DNA of 64,000 nucleotides, taken from Pseudothermotoga thermarum DSM 5069 (lineage in GTDB: Bacteria; Thermotogota; Thermotogae; Thermotogales; DSM-5069). Both the position numbers and the translations under genes were made by a program. Shown here piece by piece: positions 47,490 through 55,200 of this stretch. The stretch covers positions 1,414,014-1,478,013 of the forward strand of contig NC_015707.1 in the NCBI RefSeq assembly GCF_000217815.1, given 5' to 3'. Under the pieces are notes generated by a model. That model did no database searches. It saw only the letters and a program-made list of their open reading frames with translations, and was not told the DNA's origin. Each line of letters starts with the position of its first letter. The first letter of the stretch is position 1.

Positions 47490-47556
47490 ATTGTTTTTTT
47501 CACGTTCATGTGTTAACTTATGCTTGTGGAAGAAGAAAGTTGCTGGAGGGATCAAT

Positions 47557-48102
47557 TTGCAGGTCAAATGCGATTTGAAGTTGCTTGGTAAAATCTTTTT
47601 AACTTTTTTTCGAATTTCTTCGCTCACCTTGGGTGGAGGTTATGCCATGGTTGCTGTTATGCAGTGGGAGGCGAAAAAGCTTAAGTGGGCTTCGGAAGAA
47701 GAGTTTTACAAAGACTTATCCCTTGCTCAAGCCATTCCAGGTCCTATAGCTTTCAACACAGCTGTTTTGCTTGGCAAAAGAGTGGCTGGTCCGCTTGGCT
47801 CGCTGACCGCTGGAATAGCAGTTGTGCTTCCACCGTTTTTTGCAATAGTTGCTGTTGCAAGCATTTTAAGGCCGCATTTGAATTCAATATACGTTCAAGC
47901 TTTTTTAAAAGGTTGTTATGCGGCCGTTATTGGCTTGGTTTTCAACGTTTTGTATGATCTTTTGAGAAGACAAAGGTGGTCTGCTTACAACATATTGATT
48001 GTAAGTGTGGGAACGATTTTATTGTTGTACAAATCTGCTTTCTTGATACCTGTCTTTCTTGGAACAATAGCGCTGCTTTACCTTAGGGGTGTTGGAAAAT
48101 GA
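47557..48102 (+). CDS. chromate transporter family subunit (half-size ChrA), first
   Basis: 181 residues with about six helices and the ChrA hallmark LGGGYAMVAVMQ plus AQAIPGPIAFNTAV. Short-chain CHR proteins work as pairs and export chromate or move other oxyanions. TTG 47557 is chosen: GGAGGG lies six bases upstream, while the frame is open to 47491. It overlaps the second subunit gene by four bases. The leader upstream suggests regulated expression. Confidence 0.87.
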   Translation: MQVKCDLKLLGKIFLTFFRISSLTLGGGYAMVAVMQWEAKKLKWASEEEFYKDLSLAQAIPGPIAFNTAVLLGKRVAGPLGSLTAGIAVVLPPFFAIVAVASILRPHLNSIYVQAFLKGCYAAVIGLVFNVLYDLLRRQRWSAYNILIVSVGTILLLYKSAFLIPVFLGTIALLYLRGVGK

Positions 48103-48623
48103 TTTTGAAAATGATCTTGGTGTTTTTGAAAATAGGATTTTTCTCTTTCGGTGGTGGCTGGGCGGTAGTCGGTCTGCTTCAAAGGGAAATGATGGAAAAC
48201 GGGATTCTGTCGTTGTCCGAGTTTACCCAAGCAGTTGCAATCGCTCAGGTGACTCCAGGACCAGTTGCCATTAACCTCGCCACATATACAGGTTACAGAC
48301 ATGCAGGATTACTTGGGGCTTTCTTGAACACTTTTTTCTTCTTGCTTCCCCCAATACTGATCGTGTTATGCATAGTTTTACTTTCAACAAAGGTTTCCAT
48401 CGATAAAACAAGATGGTCAGCGGCTTTGATGGGTTTTACGACGGTGATGGTACTAGTTACGTTGATCAGCCTTTCTCTTCCAAGATTTCTTGATGTTTGG
48501 ACTATGATCCTTGCAACTGGTGTGTTCATTGGTTTGCGTAAATTTAAGATCAATCCACTGTGGTTGATATTCACAAGCGGTTTTGCAGGAATTTTGATCT
48601 TTGGTTTTTTAACGAATTTCTAA
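48099..48623 (+). CDS. chromate transporter family subunit (half-size ChrA), second
   Basis: 174 residues, partner of the preceding gene: FFSFGGGWAVVGLLQ and AQVTPGPVAINLATYTG, the second conserved PGP motif. ATGA overlap with the first subunit gives coupled translation. Whether the pair moves chromate or another anion is unknown. Confidence 0.87.
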   Translation: MILKMILVFLKIGFFSFGGGWAVVGLLQREMMENGILSLSEFTQAVAIAQVTPGPVAINLATYTGYRHAGLLGAFLNTFFFLLPPILIVLCIVLLSTKVSIDKTRWSAALMGFTTVMVLVTLISLSLPRFLDVWTMILATGVFIGLRKFKINPLWLIFTSGFAGILIFGFLTNF

Positions 48624-49204: not shown

Positions 49205-49239
49205 CAAAAAAATGATGAGAGGCTTTTAGCCTCTCATCA
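49205..49239 (-). terminator. terminator overlapping the encapsulin stop
   Basis: TGATGAGAGGC (minus strand, 49239-49229) pairs with GCCTCTCATCA (49223-49213), followed by eight T. The encapsulin stop TAA (49228-49226) lies in the loop. Confidence 0.9.
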
Positions 49240-50014
49240 CACAGAAAGCTGAAGGAACATTGACAAGAAGAGCGATGCTTTCGGATATAGAAAATTCAAG
49301 CTGTTCGTCCTTAGGACCTATGAAACCGATAGACATATCTTGACCGATTATCAGTGAAGCATACGCTGAAGAATCACTGAAAACGATTGCTTCGTTTTTT
49401 AACGCAGGTGCTTTTACAACACTTTTGATGAACGTCTTTATGTGCTCATATTCTGTTTGATTTCCACTTTCATACCTTCTAAAGAGCAAGTTGTACCTGC
49501 TGGAAGGTAGCGCAACGATATATGGTCCATGAAAGCCCGCTTCATCCAAAAGACTTATTGCCTTGATCAAATCTTCGGCTGCTTGCCCGACTTTTTCCCA
49601 ACTTTTCATAGAACAGCTGAGCGTTCCTGGCATGTTGAGAAATCCATAGTTGTTGTTGATTCCTTCGAAAACTATTTTGTCCTCAAGCTCGCAGCATTCT
49701 CTGACAGTTTGGATGAACTTTCCAAGATCAAGAGCCACCTTTTCTTTTTCAAAACTTGCAATATCACGCATCGGAAATGAAAAAGTTTTATGAATGTAAA
49801 ACAGAGGAAGGCTTTTTGGAACGAAGACTCCTTCCATCACCTTTTCATCCGCCAAAGATATCTGTTTCACACCAAATCCCAAAGGCCCTTTAACTGGCAA
49901 AATTTTTCTTGCCGTTAAACAAGATTTGGCAACTTCAACCATGGTTTTGTTGAGCAAATCCCATACTTCTTGACTTACGGGGGCATCCTCCTGCATAAGA
50001 TACTTGTTTGCCAT
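49226..50014 (-). CDS. enc: encapsulin shell protein (family 1, linocin-like)
   Basis: 262 residues with the HK97-type encapsulin pattern: VKGPLGFGVKQ, MEGVFVPKSLPLFYI, RECCELEDKIVFEG, GPYIVALPSSRYN, IIGQDMSIGF and FSISESIALLV. It self-assembles into a proteinaceous nanocompartment. ATG 50014 is chosen (AAGGTG upstream; frame open to a GTG at 50023). One base separates it from the stop of the ferritin-like cargo gene, so stoichiometry is set by translational coupling. Two adjacent cysteines (ECC) in the shell are unusual. Confidence 0.92.
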   Translation of the reverse strand: MANKYLMQEDAPVSQEVWDLLNKTMVEVAKSCLTARKILPVKGPLGFGVKQISLADEKVMEGVFVPKSLPLFYIHKTFSFPMRDIASFEKEKVALDLGKFIQTVRECCELEDKIVFEGINNNYGFLNMPGTLSCSMKSWEKVGQAAEDLIKAISLLDEAGFHGPYIVALPSSRYNLLFRRYESGNQTEYEHIKTFIKSVVKAPALKNEAIVFSDSSAYASLIIGQDMSIGFIGPKDEQLEFSISESIALLVNVPSAFCVMRG

Positions 50015-50015
50015 A

Positions 50016-50357
50016 TCACTCACCTTCCCTCAGAGAACCAATCGTTGGCTCTTCATCAGACTCGTCCTTTGCCAGTTCTTCTACTTCCTTTGCACCTTGT
50101 TCAAGGTATTTTGCCTCGTCTTTTGTGAGTATTTCCAAAAGTTTCAAAAATTCTCCTGCATGTACCCTTTCCTCATTTGCGATGTCAATCAGCACTTTCT
50201 TTGCCAAAGGATGATCGGTTGCCTCAGCATGCGCCATATAAAGATGAACAGCTTCTTCTTCGGCTGCAAGGTTGAGTCGGATTGCCCTTATCAATTCCTG
50301 GAGAGTCATCTTTCTTTCTGGTACCTTCCCGCTGAATGGATTTAAAAATTCTGGCAT
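50016..50357 (-). CDS. ferritin-like encapsulin cargo protein
   Basis: 113 residues: a four-helix-bundle ferroxidase-type domain with ligands in AAEEEAVHLYMAHAE and IANEERVHAGEFLKLL, then an acidic tail ending TIGSLREGE. TIGSL is the typical encapsulin cargo-loading motif, so the protein should be packed inside the shell and oxidise/store iron. ATG 50357 is chosen because GGAGGTGA precedes it. A TATAAT lies upstream near 50375 inside the glmS-cargo gap. Confidence 0.9.
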   Translation of the reverse strand: MPEFLNPFSGKVPERKMTLQELIRAIRLNLAAEEEAVHLYMAHAEATDHPLAKKVLIDIANEERVHAGEFLKLLEILTKDEAKYLEQGAKEVEELAKDESDEEPTIGSLREGE

Positions 50358-50395
50358 ATTTTTCACCTCCGGCTGAAATTATACTATACCAAAAT

Positions 50396-52192: not shown

Positions 52193-52258
52193 TAGTTATC
52201 CCTCCAAAATAAATTGTTTTGCATTTATAGTATACTTTTTCGTTGGTGAGAAAGAGAA

Positions 52259-53506
52259 ATGAGTAAAAGAAGTGTTGCCTTTGGGAAATTATTGAGAAAA
52301 TATATCTATAATCCTTCAAAAGCTCGTAGAATTTTGAAAACAGGGCTTTCCGCGGAGTTTCTCAGAAGAAAAACTGTTGCAGTTTTGAAAAACGATTTTT
52401 CAAGCTGGATGGATTACTGTGCTTTGCAAGTCGTTCAAAAAGCTATTTTTGGTAAAAATGTTGTTTGGGTGAATTTGCTTTTTCCGGTTGAGATTCTGCT
52501 AGCCTTTGATTTGCATCCTGTTTCAGCTGAGGGACTAGCTGGCGCTTTTGCTTCAATGCTGCTGGAGGATGTTGCTATATCTAAAGCTGAGTCGATGGGG
52601 ATCGCACGTAACATGTGCACCTTTCACAGAACCAGCCTTGGAATAAATCTTCTTGGAATTTTTCCAAAGCCGTTGTTCGTTGCAACAACGAATGTATTGT
52701 GTGATGGGAATATCCCAACTTTCTATACTCATTCAAGGCTGTTCAACATCAAGTTTTTTCTTTTGGATATACCAAGGAAAGAGCTTCCCTCAAACAAAGA
52801 TTATGTAACAAAACAACTTGAGGACTTCATTGTTGAAATTGAAAAGCTTTTGAACAAGAAGTTTGACATGAAAAAACTTAAGATAATCCTTGAAATTGAG
52901 AAAGAAACCCACGATATTTTGCGGGAAGTTTATCAAAAATTTTGTGAAGAACCAATTAAGATGAAGTTGTATCAGCATGTGAACATTATGTACTCGCTTC
53001 ACGTCAATCCAAGTTTGGTAACTTTGAAAGCCGCAAGATCTTTATTGAAAGGTTATCCCACCTATAAAAATGTGGAGAAAAGATTGCTTTGGTTGTATCT
53101 TACACCTTATTATGACAACGAGCTTTATGAAATTTTCGGTGAAAAATCCAAATTCGCAGTTGTAACCAGTGAACTTGAATGGGATTGGCTTGATTGGAAA
53201 ATCGACACTTCAAGACCTTTGGAAACTCTTGCCGATAAGCTTTTAAAAAATTACCAAACAGGTTCGCTTGAAAGAAGGCTTCAATTGATAAAGAAACTTG
53301 CTTTAGATTTTAAGGTTGATGGCGTGATACAGTTCAACCATTGGGGTTGTAAGCAATCTTCCGGCTCTGTTTCTTTGATAAAGGAAGAACTTGGAAAAAT
53401 TGGCATTCCGTTCCTTTCTTTGGACGGCGATTGCGTTGATCACAACAATCAATCTGCCGCTCAATACAAAACAAAGGTAAATGCTTTTTTGGAGATGATA
53501 TCATGA
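52259..53506 (+). CDS. 2-hydroxyacyl-CoA dehydratase-like (HgdB/double-cubane type) protein
   Basis: 415 residues of the HgdB-like fold that carries Fe-S clusters: PVEILLAFDLHPVSAEG, NMCTFHRTSLG, NVLCDGN in the N-half and NHWGCKQSSGSVSLIKEELGKIG, LDGDCVDHNN in the C-half. Family members are subunits of radical dehydratases or ATP-dependent double-cubane cluster reductases. Cysteines near 44, 118, 144, 372 and 388 are candidate ligands. It overlaps the next gene (ATGA), which fuses a partner domain with the activating ATPase. No CoA-substrate genes are nearby. Confidence 0.85.
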   Translation: MSKRSVAFGKLLRKYIYNPSKARRILKTGLSAEFLRRKTVAVLKNDFSSWMDYCALQVVQKAIFGKNVVWVNLLFPVEILLAFDLHPVSAEGLAGAFASMLLEDVAISKAESMGIARNMCTFHRTSLGINLLGIFPKPLFVATTNVLCDGNIPTFYTHSRLFNIKFFLLDIPRKELPSNKDYVTKQLEDFIVEIEKLLNKKFDMKKLKIILEIEKETHDILREVYQKFCEEPIKMKLYQHVNIMYSLHVNPSLVTLKAARSLLKGYPTYKNVEKRLLWLYLTPYYDNELYEIFGEKSKFAVVTSELEWDWLDWKIDTSRPLETLADKLLKNYQTGSLERRLQLIKKLALDFKVDGVIQFNHWGCKQSSGSVSLIKEELGKIGIPFLSLDGDCVDHNNQSAAQYKTKVNAFLEMIS

Positions 53507-55200
53507 TAATCTACAACTGTCCACGAGTTCCTTTCGAGTTTTTCATGTGTTTGGATATACCATATCGTAGGGTTGAGATCAAAGGCTGCGAATTTGAAAA
53601 TTTTCATCCAAACGTTTGCTCTTTTTGCAGAAGAACCATCGCCGATCTGCCAAAAGACGCCGTGCTCTTTTGGATTGATTCTTGCGACTCGATGAGACGT
53701 TCCGTTGACTTTTTGACGAAAACCCACAGCGTTTTTACGTTGCATCTGCCAACTGTGGTTAATCAGCACAGCAAAGAAAAGCTTAAAAAAGACCTTGAAG
53801 TTGTCTTGCTGAAGCTGGAAAAGTTCTTTGGCAAAAAGGTGAGTAGAGAAAAACTGCTTGAGGTTCAAAAAAAGCTGTACGAGGATATTGAAAAACTCGA
53901 GCAAGCAGTTTATCAATTTCGTTTTGAAGAAGCCAAAGTTTTGTACGAAAGAATAACTGGTTCAAAGTACGTTGGACCTATGAAAAACCATGGAAAGCCT
54001 TTGATAGTACTTGGATCACCTGTGGATGAAAATTTCATTCGCATCGTTGAAGAAAACAAGGTTCTCCCAATCAACGCCACGTGCAGTGGACCACTTGTTT
54101 TGTTTTCACAACTTGAATACACAAAAGATCCGTTTGAAAACATAGCCTTGAGACTACTTGGCCAAAGACTTTTCTGTGCAAGATCTCTCCAAGAAAGGCA
54201 AACAGAGTGGATATTTGAAAAATTCAAAACCAACCTTGCCGTAATTCATACGGTAAAGTTCTGCGATTTTTACTGGTTTGACGAAATGCAACTAAAAAGT
54301 TTAAACGTAAAGTTTGTAACGGTTGAGAACGATTTTTCAATGAATCATCAGCAAATCAAAACTCGTTTGGAGGCGCTGATCGAAATGGAAAAAGGTATTG
54401 AGAGAAGGGAATCTAAAACAAAATATTACGTCGGTATTGACAGTGGTTCTACAACAACGAAAATAGCGGTTTTGGATGAGAATAAAAACTTGCTTTACAA
54501 AGAAGTCGTAAAAACTGGTGCATACCCAGTCAAGGTTGCGACGATGCTTTTTGAAAAGGTTTTAAGCAAGTTGAAAATTTCAAGAGAAGAAGCTTTCGTT
54601 GTTGCAACTGGGTATGGCAGATCGCTTTTAGACTTTGCAGATTTACAAGTTACCGAAATAACATGTCACGCCAAGGGGGTTCGGGAGATTTTTCCAAACG
54701 TGAAAACGATAATCGACATAGGAGGACAAGACAGCAAGGTCATAAAACTTGAAGATGGGCAAGTTAAAGATTTCGTCATGAACGACAAATGCGCAGCTGG
54801 CACAGGTAGATTTCTCGAGGTAATGGCGCACACGTTGGAAGTACCGATAGAAAAAATTGGAGAAGTAGCGCTTTTTGCCAAAGAAAATTTGAGTATCAGC
54901 AGTGTTTGTACTGTTTTTGCAGAAAGCGAAGTGATATCTCTAAGGTCCTCTGGACATAAGGTTGAGGACATACTCAAAGCCGTTCACATGGCGATAGCAA
55001 AAAGATTGATTGCAATGTACGGCAGAGTAAATGGAGAAAGCCCGGTGGTTTTAACCGGAGGTGTGGCAAAAAATATCGCGATCAAAAAGTGCCTAGAAGA
55101 ACTTCTCAACACTTCCATTCAAGTTCCGCAGGATCCAACCGTAACTGGCGCGCTTGGTGCGGCTGTGATAGGTTTAGAAACCTGTTTGAAAAGGGTTTAA
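53503..55200 (+). CDS. fusion of a dehydratase-like subunit and a BcrAD/BadFG-type activating ATPase
   Basis: 565 residues. The first ~300 are a second HgdA/B-like, Cys-rich domain (VCSFCR, WIDSCDSM, NATCSGPLV, KFCDFYWFDEM). From ~307 follows a complete activase: YVGIDSGSTTTKIAVLD, IDIGGQDSKV, NDKCAAGTGRFLEVM, SSVCTVFAESEVISL, LTGGVAKNIA; the two Cys motifs bind the 4Fe-4S cluster between subunits. In characterised systems activase and dehydratase are separate proteins that meet transiently; here they are one chain. It could drive ATP-coupled low-potential electron transfer to its partner at 52259. Confidence 0.88.
   Translation: MIIYNCPRVPFEFFMCLDIPYRRVEIKGCEFENFHPNVCSFCRRTIADLPKDAVLFWIDSCDSMRRSVDFLTKTHSVFTLHLPTVVNQHSKEKLKKDLEVVLLKLEKFFGKKVSREKLLEVQKKLYEDIEKLEQAVYQFRFEEAKVLYERITGSKYVGPMKNHGKPLIVLGSPVDENFIRIVEENKVLPINATCSGPLVLFSQLEYTKDPFENIALRLLGQRLFCARSLQERQTEWIFEKFKTNLAVIHTVKFCDFYWFDEMQLKSLNVKFVTVENDFSMNHQQIKTRLEALIEMEKGIERRESKTKYYVGIDSGSTTTKIAVLDENKNLLYKEVVKTGAYPVKVATMLFEKVLSKLKISREEAFVVATGYGRSLLDFADLQVTEITCHAKGVREIFPNVKTIIDIGGQDSKVIKLEDGQVKDFVMNDKCAAGTGRFLEVMAHTLEVPIEKIGEVALFAKENLSISSVCTVFAESEVISLRSSGHKVEDILKAVHMAIAKRLIAMYGRVNGESPVVLTGGVAKNIAIKKCLEELLNTSIQVPQDPTVTGALGAAVIGLETCLKRV

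Follow-up and report, generated by a model that had tools for sequence, protein, structure and literature searches.

Introduction

ATP-coupled electron transfer to potentials below that of ferredoxin is found in few systems, the well-known ones being the nitrogenase-like enzymes and the archerase-driven 2-hydroxyacyl-CoA dehydratases (HAD), benzoyl-CoA reductases (BCR) and double-cubane cluster proteins (DCCP). HAD requires its activase in catalytic amounts only. In class I BCR, represented by BzdNO with BzdPQ (8s02, PMC11971306) and by MbdONPQ (9g87, 9gai), a subunit with a three-cysteine [4Fe-4S] site is combined with a partner subunit and with a separate BadFG-type activase built from two different subunits. 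In BzdO, Cys95, Cys128 and Cys380 bind the catalytic [4Fe-4S]-OH2 cluster, Glu65 is the proposed acid/base beside the cluster-bound water, and the plan is completed by a six-cysteine double-cubane subunit and the activase (PMC11971306). DCCP with DCCP-R (6eno, 7yyl) and E. coli YjiM/YjiL each combine a six-cysteine protein with an activase, DCCP being an unfused homodimer with two double cubanes. In 2-hydroxyisocaproyl-CoA dehydratase (HadBC with HadI), a three-cysteine HadB is accompanied by HadC, in which two of the six double-cubane cysteines are missing by alignment, by a separate activase with two cysteines per monomer (as in HgdC) and by a CoA-transferase partner.

Here, we describe a gene pair, ORF1 and ORF2, in a 64,000-nucleotide stretch of the Pseudothermotoga thermarum DSM 5069 chromosome (hereafter the window). 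A sequence-only reading had proposed that two genes encode a dehydratase/double-cubane-like system in which the activase is joined to one of the subunits, and the domains, coordinates and ligand cysteines reported below bear this out. The pair probably constitutes a self-contained ATP-driven low-potential reductase that follows the cofactor plan of class I BCR (BzdNO plus activase) in two chains.

Organization of the locus

The features of the locus are as follows (positions in the window).

52193..52258, no strand: 66-bp intergenic region between the divergent genes glmS (minus strand) and ORF1 (plus strand)
52259..53506, plus strand: ORF1, HGD-D protein of the HadB/BzdO active-site type, 415 aa, predicted catalytic [4Fe-4S] subunit
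53503..53506, plus strand: ATGA start/stop overlap (4 bp) of ORF1 and ORF2
53503..55200, plus strand: ORF2, double-cubane-type HGD-D domain fused to a BadFG/BcrAD activase, 565 aa
53503..54393, plus strand: compact double-cubane-type domain, ORF2 residues 1-297
54394..54423, plus strand: linker of about 10 residues from the N-domain to the activase (AlphaFold2 model: helix 282-297, strand from 308)
54424..55182, plus strand: activase (ASKHA ATPase), ORF2 residues 308-560

The ATGA overlap suggests that ORF1 and ORF2 are translationally coupled, and a GGAG Shine-Dalgarno-like sequence for the ORF2 start is located within ORF1. The start positions of both frames match those of their relatives. 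A promoter scan gave no more matches than shuffled sequences did, and no consensus match in the 66-bp region upstream of ORF1; on the 3' side a convergent HAD phosphatase gene touches the ORF2 stop codon. The genome has no HGD-D matches besides ORF1 and ORF2. Because the same architecture and gene order recur in 64 loci, a frameshift or a misassembly was ruled out as the source of the ORF2 fusion.

Elsewhere in the window, a family 1 encapsulin gene follows, with an 8 bp overlap, the gene of a 116-aa EncB-family ferritin-like cargo protein (49226-50366), the two forming an iron-storage nanocompartment cassette. Two adjoining, overlapping half-size ORFs at 47491-48623 resemble the halves of a chromate transporter; the second, the one that was scanned, matches PF02417.

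ORF1 resembles active-site subunits

ORF1 matches the Pfam HGD-D family (PF06050) at E = 6.2e-69 and 233.6 bits, above the gathering cut-off of 28.4. Its AlphaFold2 model (pLDDT 90.8) is closest in Foldseek searches to HadB (3o3m_A), then to MbdO and BzdO; HadB is the top match by sequence as well as by fold. Comparison with these proteins places a predicted active site at the following residues.

52529..52531, plus strand: ORF1 Glu91, invariant, aligned with BzdO Glu65
52616..52618, plus strand: ORF1 Cys120, predicted cluster ligand, aligned with BzdO Cys95
52700..52702, plus strand: ORF1 Cys148, predicted cluster ligand, corresponding to BzdO Cys128 (alignments off by at most 1 residue)
53348..53350, plus strand: ORF1 Cys364, predicted cluster ligand, aligned with BzdO Cys380

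Among 56 ORF1 sequences these cysteines show little or no variation, and they align with the HadB site as well as with BzdO. As ORF1 keeps the fold of subunits that bind CoA esters, a CoA thioester is a possible substrate. His123 (52625-52627) and His361 (53339-53341), which are invariant or nearly invariant, adjoin the cluster cysteines, and HadB and BzdO have no histidine at the aligned places; these residues are possible family-specific proton donors.

Up to five extra cysteines surround the predicted active site in about 66-79% of ORF1 relatives, mostly from Lachnospiraceae (positions 77, 82, 92, 95 and 360 in the numbering of the window protein, for example in loci L021, L025, L060, L062 and L070), whereas the Thermotogales proteins lack them. 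The extra residues might bind an additional or larger cluster in Lachnospiraceae, and the cofactor may therefore differ among ORF1 branches.

ORF2 combines a double-cubane-type domain with a complete activase

As the sequence-only reading had claimed, ORF2 carries a second cysteine-rich HGD-D domain and a complete BadFG/BcrAD ATPase: residues 29-295 match PF06050 (E = 2.9e-28, 99.9 bits, cut-off 28.4), residues 310-557 match Pfam BcrAD_BadFG (2.1e-64) and residues 309-557 match the TIGR00241 activase model (1.4e-81, 273.7 bits, cut-off 125.4). In the AlphaFold2 model (pLDDT 89.6, pTM 0.79) the N-domain is nearest in fold to HadC, DCCP and BzdN, with a helical middle domain that is shorter than in DCCP and BzdN. 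Cys6, Cys39, Cys61, Cys194, Cys225 and Cys254 align with the full set of six cluster cysteines in DCCP and BzdN and are conserved across 60 ORF2 sequences; comparison of the cluster ligands with double-cubane proteins, the test named beforehand as the one that could overturn the assignment, found them present and invariant. In the BCR subunit MbdN the first of the six is apparently missing by alignment; the link between the number of clusters and the type of reaction is therefore loose, and cysteine number alone is not decisive.

The nucleotide motifs of the activase domain (DSGSTTTK, DIGGQDSK and TGGVAKN) are intact and conserved. Cys430 and Cys469, invariant in the 60 ORF2 sequences, are the predicted ligands, two per monomer as in HadI and HgdC, of a [4Fe-4S] cluster between two activase monomers. 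The top solved relative of this domain is MbdQ (9gai_D, 1.7e-68), with HadI, HgdC and DCCP-R also matched, and its nearest folds are MbdQ, HadI and HgdC. The clusters predicted from the cysteine positions of both proteins correspond to those of BzdNO plus its activase.

Comparison with characterized and fused relatives

The pair falls within the HGD-D and activase superfamilies, yet below every DCCP, HAD and BCR equivalog cut-off tested. Against the DCCP equivalog NF040772 (cut-off 350 bits) ORF1 scores 68.6 and ORF2 54.9; the HadBC dehydratase equivalogs (cut-offs 750 and 700) give 78.6 and 29 bits; and the BCR equivalogs TIGR03191, TIGR02260 and TIGR03190 give 50.7, 42.6 and 17.3 bits against cut-offs of 448.6, 486.6 and 453.8, respectively.

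The likenesses are of three kinds. With class I BCR the pair shares a three-cysteine subunit for a predicted [4Fe-4S] cluster, a six-cysteine partner, a BadFG-type activase and the active-site glutamate, but a single activase is fused to the double-cubane-type subunit, and benzoyl-CoA pathway genes were not found. With DCCP/DCCP-R and YjiM/YjiL, ORF2 shares a six-cysteine protein and an activase, and ORF2 can be aligned collinearly with the unfused E. coli yjiM-yjiL, which encode a double-cubane reductase and its activator; ORF2 can therefore be viewed as YjiM and YjiL joined in one chain, to which a partner has been added. Unlike DCCP, the locus encodes two different HGD-D chains, only one of them with six cysteines and the other a separate three-cysteine protein. 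With HadBC/HadI and HgdC it shares the two-cysteine activase and, in HadB, the fold and three-cysteine site closest to ORF1, whereas no CoA-transferase partner was found.

The same genome encodes an activase fusion of about 1400 aa with two BcrAD domains, DUF2229 and a weak HGD-D match (L113, 3056-7279; C1, about 361000-365300), and similar proteins are encoded by the majority of genomes in the window's family and also occur in several further Thermotogota families. Like ORF2, these proteins combine an activase and an HGD-D-like segment in a single chain; they differ in domain order, in their two activase domains, in DUF2229 and in the weakness of their HGD-D similarity. The earlier generalization that known systems have a separate activase accordingly holds for characterized enzymes but not for genomes, where the ORF2-type fusion extends across Thermotogota and Clostridia and the larger fusion is found as well.

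Distribution and evolutionary history

The fusion is present in 64 loci (62 distinct ones once the window itself and one duplicate record are removed). An ORF1 homologue lies directly upstream in 58 of the 64, usually sharing 4 or 7 bp with ORF2; of the six loci without one, five end at a contig edge. Homologues that span the whole fused ORF2 come from nine genomes of the window's family (47-54% identity), a second Thermotogota family (40%) and many Lachnospiraceae along with some other Clostridia (32-36% across its full length). The pair is kept in both Thermotogota and Clostridia, gut bacteria included. Among 150 genomes sampled from one Lachnospiraceae family, the fused form occurs in 21; its scores (E < 1e-68) separate it clearly from ordinary DCCP-like proteins (E ~1e-31 or weaker).

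A tree of HGD-D domains, in which HadB and BzdO were represented by partial sequences from alignments and long branches leave the deep joins unsure, splits with 100/100 support into DCCP, BzdN, HadC and the ORF2 N-domain on one side and HadB, BzdO and ORF1 on the other. The initial description of ORF1 as HgdB-like is thereby narrowed: it groups with the HadB/BzdO active-site subunits, and the ORF2 N-domain groups with DCCP, BzdN and HadC. Each forms a clade of its own, that of ORF1 lying beside HadB/BzdO. The two sub-trees mirror one another from opposite sides, consistent with one heteromeric enzyme that is inherited as a unit. In Thermotogae bacterium ADurb.Bin062 (L067) both ORF1 and the ORF2 N-domain group with Clostridia and not with other Thermotogota, which suggests that the two genes were transferred horizontally together. 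No description of an ORF1-ORF2-type fusion was found in the open literature searched, outside which the two central DCCP papers lay; within that scope, an architecture that is widespread in genomes appears undescribed.

Genomic context and alternative reactions

Among the sampled loci no neighbours of the pair are conserved across phyla, and the adjoining genes are ordinary and unrelated. An ispE-like GHMP kinase gene runs convergently to ORF2 in nine relatives from the window's family; the Lachnospiraceae neighbours include MATE, DnaK, P-type ATPase, ABC permease, ROK and MarR genes; and the closest approach to CoA chemistry is seen in three Blautia loci, where an AMP-binding, acyl-CoA-ligase-like gene precedes the pair. 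No riboswitch or other Rfam element was found near the pair in 15 loci, the only matches being two tRNA genes elsewhere. With neither conserved neighbours nor a riboswitch, ORF1-ORF2 appears to be a stand-alone module. A selenium link has been reported for DCCP-type genes (PMC10418091, PMC5322559); it does not apply to the pair as such, the survey having recorded no SelD in Thermotogae (PMC10418091, PMC5322559).

The context bears on the possible reactions. In a 2-hydroxyacyl-CoA dehydratase a single injected electron would be recycled as (R)-2-hydroxyacyl-CoA loses water to give enoyl-CoA, and the fusion would be incidental. HadB as the top ORF1 match, the BadFG type of the activase and the Blautia ligase-like gene favour this reaction, which we nevertheless regard as unlikely. 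Class III CoA-transferase (PF02515) was found neither in the window genome nor in any of 11 genomes of its family, nor in five Lachnospiraceae-type Clostridia genomes that have the pair; the window genome also gave no crotonase (PF00378) match above the cut-off, so that genes for dienoyl-CoA degradation are missing on this measure, and no acyl-CoA dehydrogenase (PF00441) match, in searches that did return matches in positive-control genomes. These absences argue against both 2-hydroxyacyl-CoA dehydration and benzoyl-CoA reduction, and they agree, together with the lack of a hydroxyacyl-CoA neighbourhood in the sampled relatives, with the earlier observation that no CoA-ester enzymes lie nearby. 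Nearly all loci, moreover, have neighbours unrelated to acyl-CoA, the six-cysteine ORF2 partner differs from HadC, the scores lie far under the HAD equivalog cut-offs, and a 1:1 activase fusion is not expected of a dehydratase.

The pair might instead act as an electron gun, re-reducing a protein-bound cofactor such as a corrinoid in trans and not a free metabolite. The activators that reduce corrinoids belong to a different protein family. ATP-dependent corrinoid reduction via activating enzymes is nonetheless an established precedent (PMC6739815), and a module without pathway neighbours would fit such a role; we hold it to be improbable, given that ORF1 keeps the complete active-site subunit fold, Glu91 and the three-cysteine cluster site and that the pair has no linked partner gene.

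A reductase of the benzoyl-CoA (Birch) type, with an aromatic or other acyl-CoA as its substrate, would share the cluster plan of BzdNO plus activase (PMC11971306), the MbdQ-like activase and the Glu91/Glu65 correspondence, but is very unlikely in view of the missing crotonase-family dienoyl-CoA hydratase and acyl-CoA dehydrogenase, scores well under the BzdO/BcrB equivalog cut-offs and the separate ORF1 clade.

Proposed mechanism

For the ATP-driven reductase, the cofactor positions suggest a path from the activase through the ORF2 N-domain to ORF1. Ferredoxin or flavodoxin would first reduce the [4Fe-4S] cluster between two ORF2 activase domains, and ATP binding and hydrolysis would then bend the activase dimer and lower the potential of the electron. 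The electron would pass to an [8Fe-9S] double cubane in the attached N-domain, which would serve as an electron store, and from there electrons would reach the three-cysteine [4Fe-4S] site of ORF1, with its exchangeable water/substrate position and Glu91. Substrate would be reduced there with ATP use proportional to the electrons transferred. Since activases work as dimers, an (ORF1-ORF2)2, that is 2:2, complex is expected. A six-cysteine partner that could store electrons and a 1:1 fused activase are better suited to a net reductase, in which each electron costs ATP, than to a dehydratase, in which one activation serves many turnovers, and we infer net reduction and not dehydration. The substrate may, as the sequence-only reading suggested, be a small molecule reduced at very low potential, and we judge a small metabolite outside fermentative acyl-CoA metabolism most likely.

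Implications

More tentatively, the pair may represent a third branch beside the dehydratases and BCRs: an ATP-driven reductase of two chains that carries its own electron pump and acts on a non-CoA metabolite at very low potential in thermophilic Thermotogota and gut Clostridia. A pathway-free member with its pump on the double-cubane subunit would provide a fixed 1:1 electron-delivery complex, and a fused two-chain complex would be easier to express and study than a four-subunit BCR. The thermostable Thermotogota proteins are good candidates for structures and for establishing the role of double-cubane clusters, and the presence of the pair in many gut Clostridia suggests an unrecognized anaerobic reduction.
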